This document shows positions 53,954 to 64,000 of a DNA stretch of 64,000 bases, in pieces (position 1 is the stretch's first letter; each line of letters opens with the position of its first letter). The position numbers and the translations under genes are program-made. Source of the stretch: Anabaena sp. PCC 7108 (GTDB lineage: Bacteria; Cyanobacteriota; Cyanobacteriia; Cyanobacteriales; Nostocaceae). Location: the NCBI RefSeq assembly GCF_000332135.1, contig NZ_KB235896.1, forward strand, positions 4,704,356-4,768,355, written 5' to 3'. The notes under the pieces were generated by a model that made no database searches, was not told the origin of the DNA, and saw only the letters and a program-made list of their open reading frames with translations.

Positions 53954-54568
53954 ATGAGTTCCCGTCGCATTCTGAAAGCTGGTGAATCTTATCCTTTCAG
54001 CCGATATTTTGAATTATCTTTTACTATTGATGATATTTTAGCGGAATTAAACTGCACTATTGAAAGGAAAAATTTAACATTACCTGAATCTTCAGAAACT
54101 TTAAATTTACAGTTTTTACAGCACCAGATTCAGCGTAATTTATCTCACATAGATTTAGTGAATGAAACTACTAGACGTGAGGCTTTAATTGGTCCCATTC
54201 TGTTTGAGGTATGTGATTTAACTAATCAGCGACTGAATATAGAATATTCCATTGCAGTAAATGATTATTTGAAAGGAACTGTAGATTATTATATTGCAGC
54301 ACCTCAAAATTTATTAGTTATTGAAGCAAAACAATCAGATTTAGTGAGGGGATTTACTCAACTTGCTATTGAATTAATCGCACTTGATCAATGGACAAAA
54401 TCTACTTCTGAGCTTATTTATGGAGCAGTTACGACTGGTGAAGATTGGCGTTTTGGAGTTTATAACCGCACAAGTCGTCAAGTAACTCAAGACCAAAAAC
54501 GTTATCGAGTTCCAGAAGATTTATCAACACTTGTGAATATTCTTATGAGTATTATTTCTGCATCATAA
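53954..54568 (+). CDS. PD-(D/E)XK nuclease-like protein
   Basis: The protein of 204 residues has GTVDYYIAAPQNLLVIEAKQSD at its centre; the Asp and the Glu-Ala-Lys form the typical nuclease core D-(x)n-ExK. A helical N-terminal half carries HIDLVNETTRREALIGPILFEV. The C-terminal half contains a run of helix and strand (FTQLAIELIALDQWTK, then ELIYGAVTTGEDWRFGVY), consistent with a restriction-like fold. No methyltransferase is adjacent. The activity is inferred only. Confidence 0.7.
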   Translation: MSSRRILKAGESYPFSRYFELSFTIDDILAELNCTIERKNLTLPESSETLNLQFLQHQIQRNLSHIDLVNETTRREALIGPILFEVCDLTNQRLNIEYSIAVNDYLKGTVDYYIAAPQNLLVIEAKQSDLVRGFTQLAIELIALDQWTKSTSELIYGAVTTGEDWRFGVYNRTSRQVTQDQKRYRVPEDLSTLVNILMSIISAS

Positions 54569-56732: not shown

Positions 56733-57152
56733 CTATGCATCGTAAGTAGCTTTACCACTGAACTTCAGTTGTGCAGGACTGGGGTTTTGACCAATTCTGC
56801 GAGGTACAAAGCGGACTTGTTCACGACCAGGGTTGACTTTTTCAGGGAAGACACCATCAGCTGGGTGAATAGCAGTGGTTTCGCCGTTGGGAAGAATCCG
56901 GTAAACTTTGTAATCCGTGATTTTGAATTTACGGAGTTGAGCGCCCAAAGCGATGCCATATTCTTTCCGAGCGATATAAAGCAGGTTTTCGCCTTTAACC
57001 ATCGTGGCTGCGCCACCTGTAGGCATTTCAAAAACTTGCTCTTTAGGGCTAGTCCAAGTGATAGCGTACTTTTCTTCTTCTTGTGCTTTTTTTAGCAATC
57101 CGCCAGTGCTGCCACCGAAAAGTGGAGTTTTACCAGTAAGAGTGTCTGCCAT
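56733..57152 (-). CDS. psaD: Photosystem I reaction centre subunit II
   Basis: PsaD binds the stromal face of photosystem I and docks ferredoxin. The protein begins [20 protein letters not shown] and has [58 protein letters not shown] and [19 protein letters not shown]. The 139-residue length is right for cyanobacteria. The start is the ATG at 57152; an in-frame extension of 13 codons upstream is not conserved. Confidence 0.97.
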
Positions 57153-57481
57153 AAGAGGTTGTCTCTCAACGTTTTTAGGGCATACTAACATCGTAATTGA
57201 GCTTATATTGCGATCGCGTCATAGACTGTAACAGTTTTTAGTGATTGAGTCTGGCTAAAGGGTTCAGAATGTTACATCAAGGAACAATAGAACAATTTTT
57301 GAGAATCAATCTATAATTAACATTACATTACATAACTTTGCAAGTCTTTACAAAAGCTACATTTTAGTAAGTGCAAAGGGTAAACCATACCAACAAAAAT
57401 CAAATAAGCTTTTAAAACATTCTGTAATTGTAGACCGTTAAGTTAGAAATTTAGCGAGGGATTGTACTTATTAATTACGAA
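57153..57481 (-). promoter_or_regulatory. psaD upstream region with predicted promoter
   Basis: On the - strand, TTACAG (57231-57226) and TATAAG (57207-57202) are separated by 18 bp, about 50 bases before the psaD start, with a HIP1 site between them. The elements are only partial matches. The rest of the 329-bp region, up to the end of the WD40-KAP gene, is AT-rich and contains no other gene that I can see. Confidence 0.35.
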
Positions 57482-60400
57482 TTACGAATTATCTCTATAA
57501 AAACCATAATCTTTCTTCTTATCTTCAAATCTATACTCACGGTTATAATGATCATCAGGATCATAACCAATATCACCGACAAAACAAAATGATCTAGCTA
57601 AATTAAAAGTTCTTTTCTCAAATACAAATTTATTTTGTGGTGGCATTTTTTCAAAATCATTTTTAAATTTTTTCCATTCTCTTTGGTTATGTCTATCCAT
57701 AAATACATCTAAATTTTGTAACTGGTTTAACCATTTATTTTTCTCAAGTTCTACTGTATCTTTTTCCTCTGTTTCAAATTCCAAATAAATCTCTTCTAAT
57801 ATTTTCCGTATTTCTTTAGGATATCTACCAGCTAAAGCTAAAAATGCAATTAATGTTTGCTTACATTCTGGTGTAGGTTCTATTCTCCATGTTGTATCAT
57901 GTTTTTCATCGTTTTCTGTTGGAGTCCAGATAATTTTGATAATTTTGCAAATATTAATAAGCCGTTTTGCGGTTCTCGGAGTTAAATCAACGTGCTGACA
58001 ACATTCTTTTATCCATTTAAATTCTTCAGCAGTAAATCGTTCAAAGGTAACTAATGGGTCTGTATTTGCAGAATGTTGTATTTTTGTATTATTCTCTTTT
58101 GAATTATCTTCTCTAGTTCTAGATTCAGAAATACCTTTAACACCTAAATTTTTAGTAGAAGTAGATACTGGGAAATTATAATCTTGATCTGTTTGTTCTT
58201 CAGTATCAACAGGTATTTCTTCAATTTCATCTTGATATGATTTTTCTGGTAATTGTTCTAATTCTTTTAAAAATCTACTTTCATCATTTACTTGTTGTAA
58301 AGGGATACAATCTTCTCCTGTTGTTTGTTGCAAAAACAGATTTTTATCAGTTATTTGCTGGGAATTAGAGATATTTTGACTGTCTTTTTTAGACTCCTCT
58401 TCAATATCTACCAAAGATTTTAAATACTTTTCTGCTACTTCTCTGCTAATAGGCCGCATTCTGTAGGGAATTTGGATAATTTTCTCTATATAATCAACAC
58501 CAGAGGGAGTACCACCACGTTTTAAAACTCCTCTATAATTGTGTTCTAAAGCCCGACCAATATAACGGTCATCTATTGCTAAAACAATGACAAATATTTC
58601 TGTATTTAACAATAATTGTACAGCTTCTAAAACTTGGACAACTCTATCAGGAGGACAACGATCTAAATCATCTATATATAAAACTATTCTCGCAGAACCT
58701 CTGGGGAAATATTTTTTAAGAGCTTTGAGTTTTTCAGGATTTGTATTTCCTGGTTTATAGGTTAAATGGTCAGATAAATCTGCTAAATCATCTTGGATTT
58801 GGTGCATTAAACCGAGAAGTTTTTGATAGGGATTATCCTCTAAACGGTTATTGACAAAATCCAATAAAGATTTATATTGAGCAGTTAAACCAACAAGTTG
58901 TTTTTGTCTTTCTACCTGTAATTGTAGTTTTTCAATTTCCTGCTCTTTTTCAGTTATTTCTTGTTTAGCTGCTTCCTTATTCCCGGAGATTTCCTTAACT
59001 TGATTTTGCTCATATTCTGATTTACGTTGATTAATTTGTTCTTTAATCTTTTCATCCTTGGTTTTAATTAGCTTTTGTTTCTCATCTTTAATATTTTCCC
59101 TAGCTACTTGTAAAAATTTCACCGTTTTTACTTGCAAAATTTGGATTTTTTTAAATATTTCGATACTGACAGATATAGCTGGAATAGCAGATATACTAGT
59201 TAACCAAAGTTTTAAAGCTGTGGATATTTCTAGAAGTGCTGGTAAAAACTTCGGGATAACAGAAACAATTAAGAAATAAGCGATAAATGGTAAAGCAGTT
59301 GCACCCAAAAATATAAATAATGTCTTTTTGTCTTTCTTAGTAAATTCAATCAGCCCAACTATATTACTAGGTTGTTCTTCCAAAAAATTAGTTATTTTTT
59401 GGACATTATTAACGATAAGCTTAATTTTAGCATTTTTCTTTTCAATTAATTCTTGTGCTACATCTAAAAGGTTAGAGTCAGCTAATTTATCTAACTTCAA
59501 CAACGGGAATTGAGCTTCTAAATCTTTTCTGTTTTTAAAGCCGCAAGAATTGAGAAAGTCTTTGAGAATAGAATCACCAAAATCATCTTTAAGAGTTTCT
59601 TTAAGTTGAGACAGAAAAATAATCAATGTCGCTACATCTGTCATTTCTTCTTCAACATTTCCCTCAATCTTCTTCACCTCTTGGTTAAATTCTTGCTCAA
59701 GCTGCTCAACTTCTAAATTAAATTTATTCTCAATTTCTTGATTCTTGCTTTTTACTTCGGCTTCTAAATTTTGTAATTCCTGTTCCGTTTGTTCTAATTT
59801 CTTCTGTTCTTCTTCTCTAACTTCACTGAGAATATCCCAAAGGGCATTACCATCAGCATTTTTTTCTTTAAATTTAGCAAATACTTCCTTGCTCAATTCC
59901 GATTCTAAAATTGCCTTTCTGTCACTATCATTCATCTGATTAATAACACGCCAAACATCACCACCAGCCAGCAAATTAGAAACTTCTCCTAATTGCTTTT
60001 CTAAAGTTAATTGACGGTCAAGTTGATCAAAAATAGTCTGCATTAAACTTGCCCAGAGATCAGATTTAGCATAACTCCAGGCATTAAATTTGATTTGGTA
60101 AACATGACCAACATAAGGAGAAAGATTTGGTTCATCTCCCTTTTCTCCCCATGTCTGTTTTGCAGTTAGTTGTTGACAGCGAATTTTGGTAATTTGTTTT
60201 TCTATTAAGTGCATTCCAAAAGATTTCCCGCTACCCCAACCGCCTAAAATTGCCACAGCTAAAGGAGGTTCAAGACTCCGCAACATTAATACATCAGCTA
60301 AAGATTGCAGTTCCTTAGACACATCTAAAGAGTCTTCACCAGTTGCTTGGTCATTGCGGAAAGCTTGAGGAACACGAGTAATATTAAATCTTTGCCAACG

Positions 60401-62272
60401 CCAAACCTTGATACCATCTTCACCAGCACTGATGATGTAGTCTCCCAGTGGGTCAAAAGCAACGGAATAAACTGCATTTTCATGTTTACCGATAATTATT
60501 TGCCGTTTACGCTGGGGGTCGGAAATATCCCATAACCGCACTGTGTTGTCATCACTGCCACTAACAACAGTTTTGCCGTCGGGACTGAAGGCTACTGAGG
60601 TGACATATTCTGTATGAACAGAGAAAGGTTTACCTATAGCTTCTCCCGTATTTACATCCCACAACCGCAATGTGTTGTCTGCACTACCACTGATAATGCT
60701 ACTCCCATCAGGACTAAAAGCAACTGAGATGACAGCACTTGTATGACCAGAGAATGGTTTACTGATTGCTTTACCCGTGTTAACGTCCCACAACTGCACT
60801 GTTTTGTCCTTGCTGCCACTAACAACCATACTGCCATCAGGACTAAAGGCCACTGAGATGACAGCACTTGTATGACCAGAGAATGGTTGAGCTATAGCTT
60901 CTCCCGTATTTACATCCCACAACCGCAATGTGTTGTCTGCACTACCACTGATAATGCTACTCCCATCAGGACTAAAAGCAACTGAGGTGACATATTCTGT
61001 ATGAACAGAGAAAGGTTTACCTATAGCTTCTCCCGTATTTACATCCCACAACCGCACAGTGTTGTCATCACTACCACTGACAACTATATTGCCACCAGGA
61101 CTAAAAGCTACTGAGTAAACAGGACTTGTATGACCAGAGAATGGTTTACCGATTGCTTTACCCGTGTTGACATCCCACAACCGCACTGTATTTTTGTCAC
61201 CACTGTCACTAACAACCATACTGCCGTCGGGACTAAAGGCTAGTGAGGTAACAGGACTTGTATGACCAAAGAATGGTTTCCCTATTGCTTTACCCGTGTT
61301 GACATTCCACAACCGCACTGTTTTATCCCTGCTGCCACTAACAACTATACTGCCATCAGGACTAAAGGCTACTGAACTGACAGAACTTGCGTGACCAAAG
61401 AATGGTTTCCCTATTGCTTCTCGAGTATTTGCGTCCCACAACTGCACTATCTTAACACTGGCACTGACAACCTTACTACCGTCGGGACTAAAGGCTACTG
61501 AGTTAACATATTTTGTATGACCAGAGAATGGTTGACCTATAGCTTCTCCCGTATTTACATCCCACAACCGTATTGTGTTGTCCCAACTGCTGCTGACAAC
61601 CTTACTACCATCGGGACTAAAGGCTACTGACCAGACCAAATTTGTATGCCCAGAGAAAATTTGCGCGACTTCTCCAGTATTCACATCCCACAACCGTATT
61701 GTGTTGTCTCTACTGCCACTGATAACCATACTGCCGTCGGGACTAAAGGCTACTGACCAGACAGAATTGGTATGCCCAGAGAATGGTTGACTTATTGCTT
61801 CTCCTGTATTTACATCCCACAACCGTATTGTGTTGTCCCTACTGCCACTAACAACCATACTGCCGTCGGGACTAAAAGCTACTGAGTTGACATAACTTGT
61901 ATGACCAGAGAATGGTTGACTTATAGCCGTTCCCGTATTCACATCCCATAATCGCACTGTGTTGTCATCACTACCACTTGCAACCATACTCGCGTCGGGA
62001 CTAAAGGCTACTGACCGGACAGAATTTGTATGACCTTTACAACTTGACCACTTTCCCCCGGTTAGCAAATCCCAAATCTCGACTGTGCCATCTGCTAAAC
62101 CCACAGCTATGCGTTGTCGTCCCTGGGGTGATATGGCTACTGCATATACTTCACTCTCAAACTCGGCAAAAGGTTTTTCAGGTTCTGGGGTTCCTGCTTC
62201 TATGCCAATTTCGATTTCTGGGATTATTAATTGTTGACTGCTGATTTCTTGTTGACCTTGGGGTGCTTCCAT
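57482..62272 (-). CDS. WD40-repeat KAP-family P-loop NTPase
   Basis: The 1596-residue protein has 14 WD40 repeats at about residues 35-640, enough for two seven-bladed propellers. Each repeat is of the form SVAFSPDGS-VVSGS-DNTVRLWDVNTGEAI-PFSGHT. The KAP NTPase follows: Walker A GGWGSGKS with Lys683, a long insertion with coiled coils (about 815-890 and 1050-1145) and two hydrophobic segments (about 984-1040), and Walker B VLYIDDLDRCPPDRV with Asp1201/Asp1202. Membrane segments inserted between Walker A and B are a hallmark of KAP NTPases. An acidic linker and a helical C-terminus with LTPRTAKRLINICKIIK follow. There is no signal peptide. Sensor or immunity-like functions are suspected for WD40-NTPases, but the substrate is unknown. 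Confidence 0.92.
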   Translation of the reverse strand: MEAPQGQQEISSQQLIIPEIEIGIEAGTPEPEKPFAEFESEVYAVAISPQGRQRIAVGLADGTVEIWDLLTGGKWSSCKGHTNSVRSVAFSPDASMVASGSDDNTVRLWDVNTGTAISQPFSGHTSYVNSVAFSPDGSMVVSGSRDNTIRLWDVNTGEAISQPFSGHTNSVWSVAFSPDGSMVISGSRDNTIRLWDVNTGEVAQIFSGHTNLVWSVAFSPDGSKVVSSSWDNTIRLWDVNTGEAIGQPFSGHTKYVNSVAFSPDGSKVVSASVKIVQLWDANTREAIGKPFFGHASSVSSVAFSPDGSIVVSGSRDKTVRLWNVNTGKAIGKPFFGHTSPVTSLAFSPDGSMVVSDSGDKNTVRLWDVNTGKAIGKPFSGHTSPVYSVAFSPGGNIVVSGSDDNTVRLWDVNTGEAIGKPFSVHTEYVTSVAFSPDGSSIISGSADNTLRLWDVNTGEAIAQPFSGHTSAVISVAFSPDGSMVVSGSKDKTVQLWDVNTGKAISKPFSGHTSAVISVAFSPDGSSIISGSADNTLRLWDVNTGEAIGKPFSVHTEYVTSVAFSPDGKTVVSGSDDNTVRLWDISDPQRKRQIIIGKHENAVYSVAFDPLGDYIISAGEDGIKVWRWQRFNITRVPQAFRNDQATGEDSLDVSKELQSLADVLMLRSLEPPLAVAILGGWGSGKSFGMHLIEKQITKIRCQQLTAKQTWGEKGDEPNLSPYVGHVYQIKFNAWSYAKSDLWASLMQTIFDQLDRQLTLEKQLGEVSNLLAGGDVWRVINQMNDSDRKAILESELSKEVFAKFKEKNADGNALWDILSEVREEEQKKLEQTEQELQNLEAEVKSKNQEIENKFNLEVEQLEQEFNQEVKKIEGNVEEEMTDVATLIIFLSQLKETLKDDFGDSILKDFLNSCGFKNRKDLEAQFPLLKLDKLADSNLLDVAQELIEKKNAKIKLIVNNVQKITNFLEEQPSNIVGLIEFTKKDKKTLFIFLGATALPFIAYFLIVSVIPKFLPALLEISTALKLWLTSISAIPAISVSIEIFKKIQILQVKTVKFLQVARENIKDEKQKLIKTKDEKIKEQINQRKSEYEQNQVKEISGNKEAAKQEITEKEQEIEKLQLQVERQKQLVGLTAQYKSLLDFVNNRLEDNPYQKLLGLMHQIQDDLADLSDHLTYKPGNTNPEKLKALKKYFPRGSARIVLYIDDLDRCPPDRVVQVLEAVQLLLNTEIFVIVLAIDDRYIGRALEHNYRGVLKRGGTPSGVDYIEKIIQIPYRMRPISREVAEKYLKSLVDIEEESKKDSQNISNSQQITDKNLFLQQTTGEDCIPLQQVNDESRFLKELEQLPEKSYQDEIEEIPVDTEEQTDQDYNFPVSTSTKNLGVKGISESRTREDNSKENNTKIQHSANTDPLVTFERFTAEEFKWIKECCQHVDLTPRTAKRLINICKIIKIIWTPTENDEKHDTTWRIEPTPECKQTLIAFLALAGRYPKEIRKILEEIYLEFETEEKDTVELEKNKWLNQLQNLDVFMDRHNQREWKKFKNDFEKMPPQNKFVFEKRTFNLARSFCFVGDIGYDPDDHYNREYRFEDKKKDYGFYRDNS

Positions 62273-62621: not shown

Positions 62622-64000
62622 TTATTTGGTCTTCACAAACGACTGCTGTTCCTCTGCACTACCCTGAACAATGGGAATAGTGAAGTGGAACTGACTACCT
62701 TGGTCTTTACCAGTGGACTCTGCCCAGATTTTGCCACCCCAGCCATTGACAATTTGCCGAGAAATTGCCAAACCCAGACCGGTACCACCAGCAGTCCGTC
62801 GCAAAGCTCCCTCTTCTTGATAAAAGCGGTCAAAGACTATTTCTAGGCGATTGGGTTCTATGCCCCGTCCCGTGTCGGATACAGTCACCTCAACCATTTG
62901 ATTGCGTTTGCTAGTAGTCGCTTTGATGTGAATCTCTCCTTGGGAAGGCGTAAATTTACAAGCATTGTCTATCAGTTTGGCGATTACCTCCACTAGCCAA
63001 TCACCGTCAGCCCTAATCAAAGGTAAAGTTTTAGGAATTTGCGTTTTAATTTGGGCTATCTTTTCCGTTGATGACCGTGTACGTAAGCGGCTGAGTGCTA
63101 AATCTATACATTCTTGTAAACTGAGGGATTCGGGATGCCATTGCACCCGACCACTTTCTAAATTAGAAAGAGTGAGGAAATCTTGCACTAATTTCCGCAT
63201 TCTCTCGGAGTCAGAAAGGGCTGTACTGAGCATCACCTGCTGCAACTCTAAAGGCATATCCGGCTCACTAGCGAGGCTTTCCAGACAAACTTGAATAGTA
63301 GATAGGGGGGTACGCAGTTCATGACCAGTGATGGCTATCAAGTTGCTACGGGTGCGGTCAAGGGCTTCTAGCTGCTTGTTCAGTTCTTCTAAATTAGCAA
63401 AAGCTTCGGCTTGAATTAATGCTGCGCCGACTTGAGTTGCGATCGCTTTGACCAAATCCAATTCTCCTGGTTGCCACTCATGGGGCGGTAAATCGCAATA
63501 ATGTAACTCGACAATTCCCAACAGTCGTCCTTGAGAGAACACTGGTTCCATCAACCAAGAACGAATGCCCAACTTTTTCACAATCAAGGAAAGTCTGGGA
63601 GAACTGGTCACACGATAGTCAATCAGCGTATCAGAAACACATACCCCCTCACCCTGTTGTGTAAGTTCTTGAAACAGAGGATTGCTCTCTAACTCCCAAG
63701 TTTGTCCCCGCACCGAAACCACACCAGGACTTAAAAATTCATGCTCAATTATGGCTTGGGCTTCGGTAGTTTGAGCGCGGTAAATGAGACAACGACCAGC
63801 TTCGAGATGTTGACCTAATTCTTGTGCAGCCACTTCGAGAACAGAGTGGGGATCAAGCGATCGCCTAATCGCCGTACTAATCGAGTTGATCAAGCGTTCT
63901 TTTCGTGCTTGTAGCGCTATAGAACGGTAGGCTTTGTGCAGTTTGTACTGACTAGCTTGCAGGTAAGTCACCAAGCGCTGTACAAACGGGTCAGTATCGA
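62622..64000 (-). CDS. GAF-domain sensor histidine kinase (5' end outside window)
   Basis: The frame is open to the right edge, reading DTDPFVQRLVTYLQASQYKL at the boundary, so the true start is beyond 64000. A GAF domain (about 150 residues, beginning LINSISTAIRRSLDPHSVLEVAA) is followed by the HisKA phosphoacceptor helix LIAITGHELRTPLSTIQVCL. The HATPase domain has the N box LIDNACKFTPSQGEIHI, the G1 box VSDTGRGIEPNRLEIVFDRF and the G2 box GGTGLGLAISRQIV. No membrane segment is visible in this part, so the input is probably cytosolic. No response regulator gene is adjacent. Confidence 0.93.
   Translation of the reverse strand, partial: DTDPFVQRLVTYLQASQYKLHKAYRSIALQARKERLINSISTAIRRSLDPHSVLEVAAQELGQHLEAGRCLIYRAQTTEAQAIIEHEFLSPGVVSVRGQTWELESNPLFQELTQQGEGVCVSDTLIDYRVTSSPRLSLIVKKLGIRSWLMEPVFSQGRLLGIVELHYCDLPPHEWQPGELDLVKAIATQVGAALIQAEAFANLEELNKQLEALDRTRSNLIAITGHELRTPLSTIQVCLESLASEPDMPLELQQVMLSTALSDSERMRKLVQDFLTLSNLESGRVQWHPESLSLQECIDLALSRLRTRSSTEKIAQIKTQIPKTLPLIRADGDWLVEVIAKLIDNACKFTPSQGEIHIKATTSKRNQMVEVTVSDTGRGIEPNRLEIVFDRFYQEEGALRRTAGGTGLGLAISRQIVNGWGGKIWAESTGKDQGSQFHFTIPIVQGSAEEQQSFVKTK

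Follow-up and report, generated by a model that had tools for sequence, protein, structure and literature searches.

KAP NTPases (PF07693), which include PifA, QatA, Tmn and Kidins220/ARMS, have in common a Walker A motif, a DDLDR Walker B motif and hydrophobic segments inside the NTPase. PifA is associated with membrane leakage. Tmn belongs to the KAP NTPases, has two transmembrane domains and inhibits several phages (PMC11846954, excerpt). QatA, which seems to form heptamers or octamers and binds DNA, is not needed against some phages (PMC13279940, excerpt), so that not every KAP protein should be taken for a membrane effector. In predicted conflict systems, KAP domains can take the place of STAND domains (PMC8195603, excerpt), and they are also found among retroelement-diversified sensors (PMC10907252, excerpt). 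In APAF-1, WD40 repeats sense cytochrome c, which triggers NTP-dependent heptamer assembly (PMC7159879; KAP is absent as a whole word from the excerpt of this source).

Here we describe a WD40-KAP protein encoded in the window, the whole stretch of 64,000 nucleotides of Anabaena sp. PCC 7108 DNA that was analysed. It shares the motifs and inserted hydrophobic segments of the known KAP NTPases, to which it adds a large N-terminal WD40 array and long coiled-coil-like stretches beside the hairpin. In contrast to QatA, it does not belong to a qat operon: qatB, qatC (QueC-like) and qatD are absent from the window flanks, which are formed by psaD/trpE and a histidine kinase, and no qat cluster was seen by eye among the neighbours recurring at three or more loci. 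The PADLOC matches to QatA, PDC-S20 and PifA in the KAP part cover only part of the model length. The strongest match (HEAT-ARM_XIII, E 3.5e-46, window protein only) falls within the WD40 part, where it may reflect no more than WD40 repeats in that model. To judge by its sequence, the architecture would be compatible with that of Tmn, a single anti-phage KAP protein with two transmembrane segments; no Tmn model was among the PADLOC matches listed.

The fungal receptors HET-D/HET-E (HNWD) likewise carry near-identical WD40 repeats with concerted evolution and changing repeat number, apparently with the same hypervariable contact positions and with a probable double propeller in both. The window protein differs from them in having KAP instead of NACHT, an N-terminal instead of a C-terminal sensor, and no HET effector. 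A young, contact-diversified array is also present in the one bacterial NACHT-WD40 protein tested (L137), and array DNA is related in two nSTAND1-WD40 proteins; unlike STAND-WD40 conflict proteins, the window protein has no STAND domain and its domain order is reversed. By analogy, it may be NLR-like in its working while standing outside the STAND/NLR class. Young blades, a 14-blade double propeller and variable hotspots are shared with highly repetitive prokaryotic WD40 proteins (PMC5587647, excerpt; 2YMU), and the terms KAP, positive selection, recombination, gene conversion and immun- do not occur in the main text of that paper.

No published WD40-KAP fusion was found in the literature searched; as the founding KAP paper of 2004 may mention such fusions, this one may already have been described. 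For a WD40-KAP family, the literature searched, part of it in excerpt, gave no account of array turnover, of allele exchange or of diversification at contact sites. The components are known; their combination and the modular allele exchange look new.

Architecture, distribution and gene neighbourhood

The reading frame is open throughout in the cyanobacterial DNA of the window, and the protein consists of a short cap, 14 WD40 blades and a KAP NTPase, in this order (Table 1). The 14 repeats before a KAP NTPase that had been named in a preliminary description of this DNA were recovered: a profile of the protein's own blades (hmmsearch) yields 14 blades at residues 27-625, the first and last of them divergent, and PF07693 matches with E 1.3e-34 (120 bits against a curated cut-off of 20). 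Tandem repeat analysis (TRF) of the array gave 11.7 copies of 129 bp with 79% match. KAP is the sole match of the C-terminal 986 residues at E up to 0.1, with no STAND domain (NACHT, NB-ARC or nSTAND). Among solved structures, the array matches PDB 2YMU best (E 4.1e-174), whose 14 repeats are arranged in two domains (PMC5587647, excerpt), and the 14 blades probably form two seven-bladed propellers; no solved relative of the KAP part was found by sequence. The intact Walker motifs and inserted membrane segments of the preliminary description were found as well, the latter as segments predicted from hydropathy (aa 983-1040). They sit between Walker A and B, and the second of them (aa 1022-1040) barely passes the threshold. 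A third hydrophobic stretch (aa 1211-1233), C-terminal to Walker B, is probably a core strand. The KAP module also has coiled-coil-like stretches, judged by eye. The protein is probably membrane-linked.

Table 1. Positions in the window of the WD40-KAP gene, its parts, its exact internal repeats and its flanking genes.
Feature	Position	Strand	Remarks
WD40-KAP gene	57482..62272	-	1596 aa, ATG start (MEAPQ...); start region common to relatives
N-terminal cap, aa 1-26	62195..62272	-	similar in relatives
Blade 1, divergent cap blade	62063..62194	-	own-blade profile and comparison with relatives
Blades 2-13, homogenised array	60521..62065	-	~129 bp per unit
Blade 14, divergent closing blade	60398..60496	-	0.79-0.94 identity to last blades of G001/G003/G108
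KAP NTPase module with coiled-coil-like and hydrophobic insert	57485..60352	-	PF07693; 12-sequence alignment
Walker A GGWGSGKS, aa 677-684	60221..60244	-	GxWGSGKS invariant in 12/12 aligned relatives
Two hydrophobic segments, aa 983-1020 and 1022-1040	59153..59326	-	Kyte-Doolittle scan
Walker B IVLYIDDLDRC, aa 1196-1206	58655..58687	-	IDDLDRCPP invariant in 12/12
LTPRTAKRLIN, conserved KAP C-terminal part	57953..57985	-	12-sequence alignment
Exact 95-bp repeat, copy 1	60634..60728		direct comparison
Exact 95-bp repeat, copy 2	60892..60986		direct comparison
Exact 76-bp repeat, copy 1	60594..60669		direct comparison
Exact 76-bp repeat, copy 2	60981..61056		direct comparison
Presumed psaD, downstream flank of insertion site	56733..57191	-	flank comparison
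Histidine kinase (GAF-HisKA-HATPase), upstream flank	62622..63974	-	continues beyond window end

The window's own genome (G000; 5.89 Mb, 3 contigs) was compared with relatives from Anabaena, Trichormus, Dolichospermum, Sphaerospermopsis, Richelia and Aphanizomenon. Matches to the KAP module (E up to 1e-30) were present in 24 of 217 family genomes, the window's included, with at most four candidates scored per genome. They comprise 14 WD40-KAP genes, one bladeless copy (G100), one truncated copy without Walker A (G096), three loci with C-terminal remnants only (G205, G087 and G230) and five genes with other N-termini. The bladeless copy (L079:8878-11589) has the cap fused in frame to KAP with zero blades and could be an artefact, because its genome is probably a metagenome bin. 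No KAP match at E up to 1e-10 was present in G004, which is the genus's fifth genome. A phylum-wide draw gave matches in 15 of 386 genomes, four of them outside the family (two candidates scored per genome); one of these outsiders, G534, carries a WD40-KAP gene with about seven blades of another type, counted by eye.

In G000-G003, the gene lies between the histidine kinase and the open reading frame that, from its sequence, we take to be psaD. The same gap is empty (~120-285 bp) in four of six further relatives (G005, G006, G017 and G019), and may be an insertion spot. In G018, another large open reading frame lies upstream of psaD, and a match to the kinase was not found; in G004, the gap is occupied by an unrelated frame of 219 codons (L111:7826-8482) with a hydrophobic start, judged by eye. 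Other clades have the gene at different sites with locally shared flanks, and at three of these sites one member retains a remnant only (G087 next to G094/G096/G100, G205 next to G198/G199, and G230 next to G232/G233). Across sites (24 homologue loci, four further loci and the window flank) there is no recurring partner gene; what recurs is confined to flanks with local synteny and to members of large families, histidine kinases for example. By eye, the neighbours look mostly housekeeping-like. Given the lack of a recurring partner, the empty gaps and the remnants, the WD40-KAP gene appears to be solitary, gained and lost. Carriage by phages or plasmids was considered and rejected: 50,697 phage records gave no match, and 7 of 72,556 plasmid records matched, all below 60% identity and none cyanobacterial, in record sets from which those nearest to the own genome are possibly absent. 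Elsewhere in the window (53954-54568), a PD-(D/E)XK-like protein matches a CRISPR-associated PD_DExK model of PADLOC (E 5e-30); it has relatives near the KAP genes of G064 and G199, though this is perhaps just a widespread family in cyanobacteria.

KAP modules also follow other N-terminal regions. That of G191 spans ~1590 residues, looks helical by eye and has only a sub-threshold Arm_3 match. The KAP proteins of G064, G067, G184 and G160 have an N-terminal region of 230-250 residues, without a Pfam match in the two scanned (G064 and G184); a macro-like reading of these two was therefore dropped, G064 showing nothing better than E 0.36. About 180 residues without a family match precede KAP in G414. 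A caspase-like N-terminus is present in G312 (PF00656, 27 bits against a cut-off of 21.4), in which the catalytic His and Cys, inspected by eye against what we take to be the caspase catalytic motif, seem to have been replaced. In L136:4809-7889, from a relative of the same order, a caspase-like domain that by eye appears to lack its catalytic residues is joined straight to a KAP NTPase.

Turnover of the array and exchange of modules

Blade number and sequence conserved across species would have spoken against the reading of the preliminary description; instead, both counts and arrays differ among the 14 arrays. Seven arrays have seven blades, those of G000, G001 and G108 have 14, and G003 has 17. 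By eye, we counted 13 blades in G002 and 12 in G031 (profile hits 12 and 11), and about 14.5 in G223 (15 hits, one a half blade). A rule of strict multiples of seven was thus rejected, even with 7 or 14 blades in 10 of the 14 arrays. Most relatives are draft assemblies, with one genome per species, and the counts are safer in G000, G198 and G233, which have few contigs.

The KAP parts of G000 and G003 are 94% identical, whereas the internal blades of G000 (2-13) match those of G003 at no more than 0.79 and find their best match within their own array at 0.75-0.88; the end blades stay orthologous (first 0.82, last 0.82). Leaving aside the first two hits and the last hit of each array, the nearest blade belongs to the same gene for most internal blades of the long arrays (G003 14/14, G000 10/11, G223 10/12, G002 8/9, G031 6/8, G001 7/11, G108 6/11), and for fewer in several of the seven-blade arrays (G232 4/4, G198 4/4, G233 2/4, G107 1/4, G088 1/4, G094 0/4, G199 0/4). 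Most of the long arrays thus show clear concerted evolution, and several of the seven-blade arrays show none. The mean identity of the G000 internal blades is 0.73. Membership of the highly repetitive WD40 class (internal identity at least 0.7) is decided pair by pair, with 70% or more required of every pair among six of eight blades in a row.

Recent blade exchange, as proposed in the preliminary description, is supported by exact tracts and by the comparison with other genomes. The two repeats reported there are identical at 69/69 positions (60601/60988, offset 387) and 90/90 positions (60638/60896, offset 258), and the exact runs are longer than given, namely 76 bp (60594/60981) and 95 bp (60634/60892) at the same offsets. 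The longest in-register exact run within a blade, 79 bp, was reached in none of 500 codon-column shuffles of the nine of 12 internal blades that are 129 nt long (maximum 71), so that the exact tracts exceed the expectation from blade similarity. They must also be recent, since in most pairs of internal blades a fraction of 0.3-0.6 of the synonymous sites is different. As the tracts are out of phase with whole blades, segmental conversion would fit them better than clean blade duplication. The longest exact internal repeats measure 267 bp in G003, 138 in G198, 123 in G002, 95 in G000, 72 in G001 and 41 in G031 and G232, and 7 of the 14 arrays have none of at least 40 bp. A search of the own genome gave no donor of the window's array: its own blade 1 matches the array at 81% over 91 nt, and the other listed matches are short or at most 82% identical.

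G001 and G002 are 90% identical in KAP, whereas their array types differ (43- versus 42-residue units, mean blade identity 0.46). G000 and G002 share cap and blade 1 with 94% DNA identity over 233 nt, beyond which the array type differs (best internal blade at most 0.56) and KAP is 70% identical. Along the KAP alignment, scanned in 100-column windows, G000 and G001 have an identity of 0.93 in the part with Walker A, ~0.5 in the coiled-coil and hydrophobic part and 0.89 in the part with Walker B, and G001 and G002 have 0.93-0.99 except in one linker window (0.32) and the next (0.81). Synonymous divergence from G000 (NG86) in KAP is 0.49 for G001, 0.55 for G002 and 0.14 for G003, against 0.18-0.28 overall in the flanking kinase, psaD and trpE. 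KAP is thus about twice as divergent as the flanks in G001 and G002 (flanks 0.20-0.28), and less divergent in G003 (flanks 0.18-0.25). This divergence out of step with the flanking genes argues for alleles exchanged in place, and the simplest reading of the sequences is that alleles were replaced and recombined there, by which cap, array and KAP would each have a different history. With a dN/dS of 0.18-0.34 against 0.04-0.14 in the flanks, KAP is constrained, though it evolves faster than its neighbours.

Array DNA of G002 is related to WD40-KAP arrays (G031 81%, G198 77%) and also to nSTAND1-WD40 open reading frames (G232:C110 76%, G094:C79 73%). From the latter kinship, we tentatively raise the possibility, doubtful as it is, of a shared pool of young, contact-diversified arrays moved by recombination among KAP, nSTAND1 and NACHT chassis in multicellular cyanobacteria, a prokaryotic counterpart of HNWD. 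The likeness of the G002 and nSTAND1-WD40 arrays may instead stem from common descent of blade types. An open reading frame of 1880 codons with WD40 and TPR repeats in G003 (L175:4708-10347) has an array with 66% DNA identity to that of G002.

Variable sites of the blades

In a numbering that puts the tetrad Asp at 34 and Gly-His at 11-12, entropy in pooled A-type arrays is highest at columns 33, 15, 17, 27 and 14. Columns 15, 17 and 33 correspond to the top-face contact sites R1-2, R1 and D-1 as defined in PMC3419727 (excerpt); column 27 is none of these. Columns 14, 15, 17 and 33 give a pooled pN/pS of 1.65 and the other columns compared one of 0.22; on recombining repeats, such ratios are indicative only. 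In this four-column test, in which columns were picked after entropy ranking and blades anchored by pattern, with some lost, the ratio exceeds 1 in 12 of 14 arrays (G088 only 1.01) and is lower in G198 (0.62) and G107 (0.82). A second test used profile-aligned internal blades and the three published sites only: in 11 of 14 arrays, R1-2, R1 and D-1 are all among the seven columns, out of 43, that vary most, their pN exceeds the array-wide pS in 12 of 14 (exceptions G094 and G107), and the blade-bootstrap interval of the contact-site ratio lies above 1 in six of 14. In G198, pS at contact columns (0.81) is higher than pN (0.48). The HNWD receptors of Podospora have high dN/dS at positions 10, 11, 12, 14, 30, 32 and 39 (PMC12222747, excerpt), which map to 13, 14, 15, 17, 33, 35 and 42 if, as the spacing suggests, the Gly-His dipeptides are to be aligned; pooled pN/pS at these columns is 1.15.

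As a control, 18 other WD40 open reading frames of the own genome with at least five blades were examined, from 17 stretches that took in most of its WD40 places, leaving out a few weaker ones. In all 18, four-column pN (0.50-0.74) exceeds that of the rest (0.10-0.37), and synonymous sites are near saturation (pS at least 0.55) in 16. Their four-column ratio is 0.62-1.13 in 17 frames and 2.22 in L137, compared with 1.22-2.19 in seven of eight KAP-family arrays of the same table and 0.77 in the eighth, G198. The frame with the highest value (L137:513-4892, contig 2 near 1,878,000) encodes 14 very young WD40 blades with NNH5, an inactive nuclease and NACHT, the last below cut-off, and is NLR-like; its contact-site excess is the strongest among the 19 own-genome arrays tested. 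Contact-site variability as a trait of KAP proteins only was therefore rejected; the control indicates that the excess marks young arrays, is common to an NLR-like protein and is no KAP speciality. The preliminary description had compared the homogeneous blades with those of repeat-variable recognition proteins. The contact-site data uphold variable recognition. As for blade similarity by itself, high similarity with variable hotspots has been described in prokaryotic WD40 proteins (PMC5587647, excerpt), among which such similarity is common, so that the homogeneity is less special than had been implied.

Proposed function

We lean, with slightly better than even confidence, towards a single-gene, NLR-like conflict sensor in which a recombining propeller is coupled to a KAP motor. 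The comparisons above show how the protein is built, that its array turns over and its modules are exchanged, that its contact sites diversify, and that the gene is patchily present and decays; the ligand, the activation, the membrane damage and the immune role we infer. The blade array would bind a protein ligand that varies, whether from phage, from a competitor or from altered self. Contact would be made by the top-face residues, which change from one blade to the next and would provide a renewable binding face. Ligand binding would release the KAP NTPase, which would then assemble with ATP, and the membrane hairpin of the NTPase would arrest or kill the infected filament cell. The array would be altered again and again by unequal recombination, by gene conversion and by the exchange of alleles, with cap, closing blade and NTPase core conserved. 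Points against this reading are the lack of a recurring partner gene, the part-length PADLOC matches, the arrays that show no contact-site excess (G094 and G107) and the extra change that contact columns carry in ordinary WD40 arrays as well; no phenotype involving phage, toxin or stress was found. The comparison across genomes agrees with the variable recognition and the membrane-linked NTPase sensor of the preliminary description, the membrane segments being predicted, and the protein might take part in immunity or cell death, as suggested there.

The same features could belong to a non-immune scaffold or signalling protein, comparable to Kidins220 and active for instance in organising the filament or in envelope stress, in which repeats homogenise by ordinary slippage or conversion and top-face variability reflects loose binding. 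Highly repetitive prokaryotic WD40 proteins with variable hotspots are known (PMC5587647, excerpt), no defence neighbours were seen by eye, and G004 of the same genus is without the gene. We nevertheless consider a scaffold rather unlikely, for it leaves unexplained the replacement of whole arrays beside a conserved KAP, the excess of pN over pS at contact sites of young arrays, and the N-terminal swaps. The trigger might also be a polymorphic partner of neighbouring strains and not phage, as in a kin (self/non-self) receptor like HET-D/HET-E. This agrees with the genome-specific arrays of the long-array members and with hypervariable blade positions that are the same as in Podospora if the Gly-His dipeptides are aligned (PMC12222747, excerpt). 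It is improbable in our view, as no polymorphic partner gene was found among the neighbours. Moreover, we know of no cytoplasmic fusion between cyanobacterial strains.

Differences in blade number could be mostly artefacts of draft assembly: in Podospora, such arrays defeat Illumina assembly (PMC12222747, excerpt), of the 13 other genomes with an array 11 are drafts in 60-530 contigs, and the zero-blade copy of G100 probably stems from a metagenome bin. However, genomes of few contigs differ too (G000, 3 contigs, 14 blades; G198, 2 contigs, 7; G233, 6 contigs, 7), and a collapse of repeats cannot change the array type (43- versus 42-residue units with a different consensus), which makes this explanation very improbable.

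If the conflict-sensor reading is true, the WD40-KAP protein would be a bacterial receptor that renews its specificity by recombination of near-identical repeats, in parallel to fungal NLRs and to the retroelement-diversified sensors of multicellular bacteria. Should arrays indeed be drawn from a shared pool, recognition would be renewed by blade conversion and array exchange, and not by point mutation or retroelements. The triggering of KAP NTPases would become testable in a group with laboratory genetics, and so would the purpose of highly repetitive WD40 arrays, which are enriched and unexplained in cyanobacteria (PMC5587647, excerpt).
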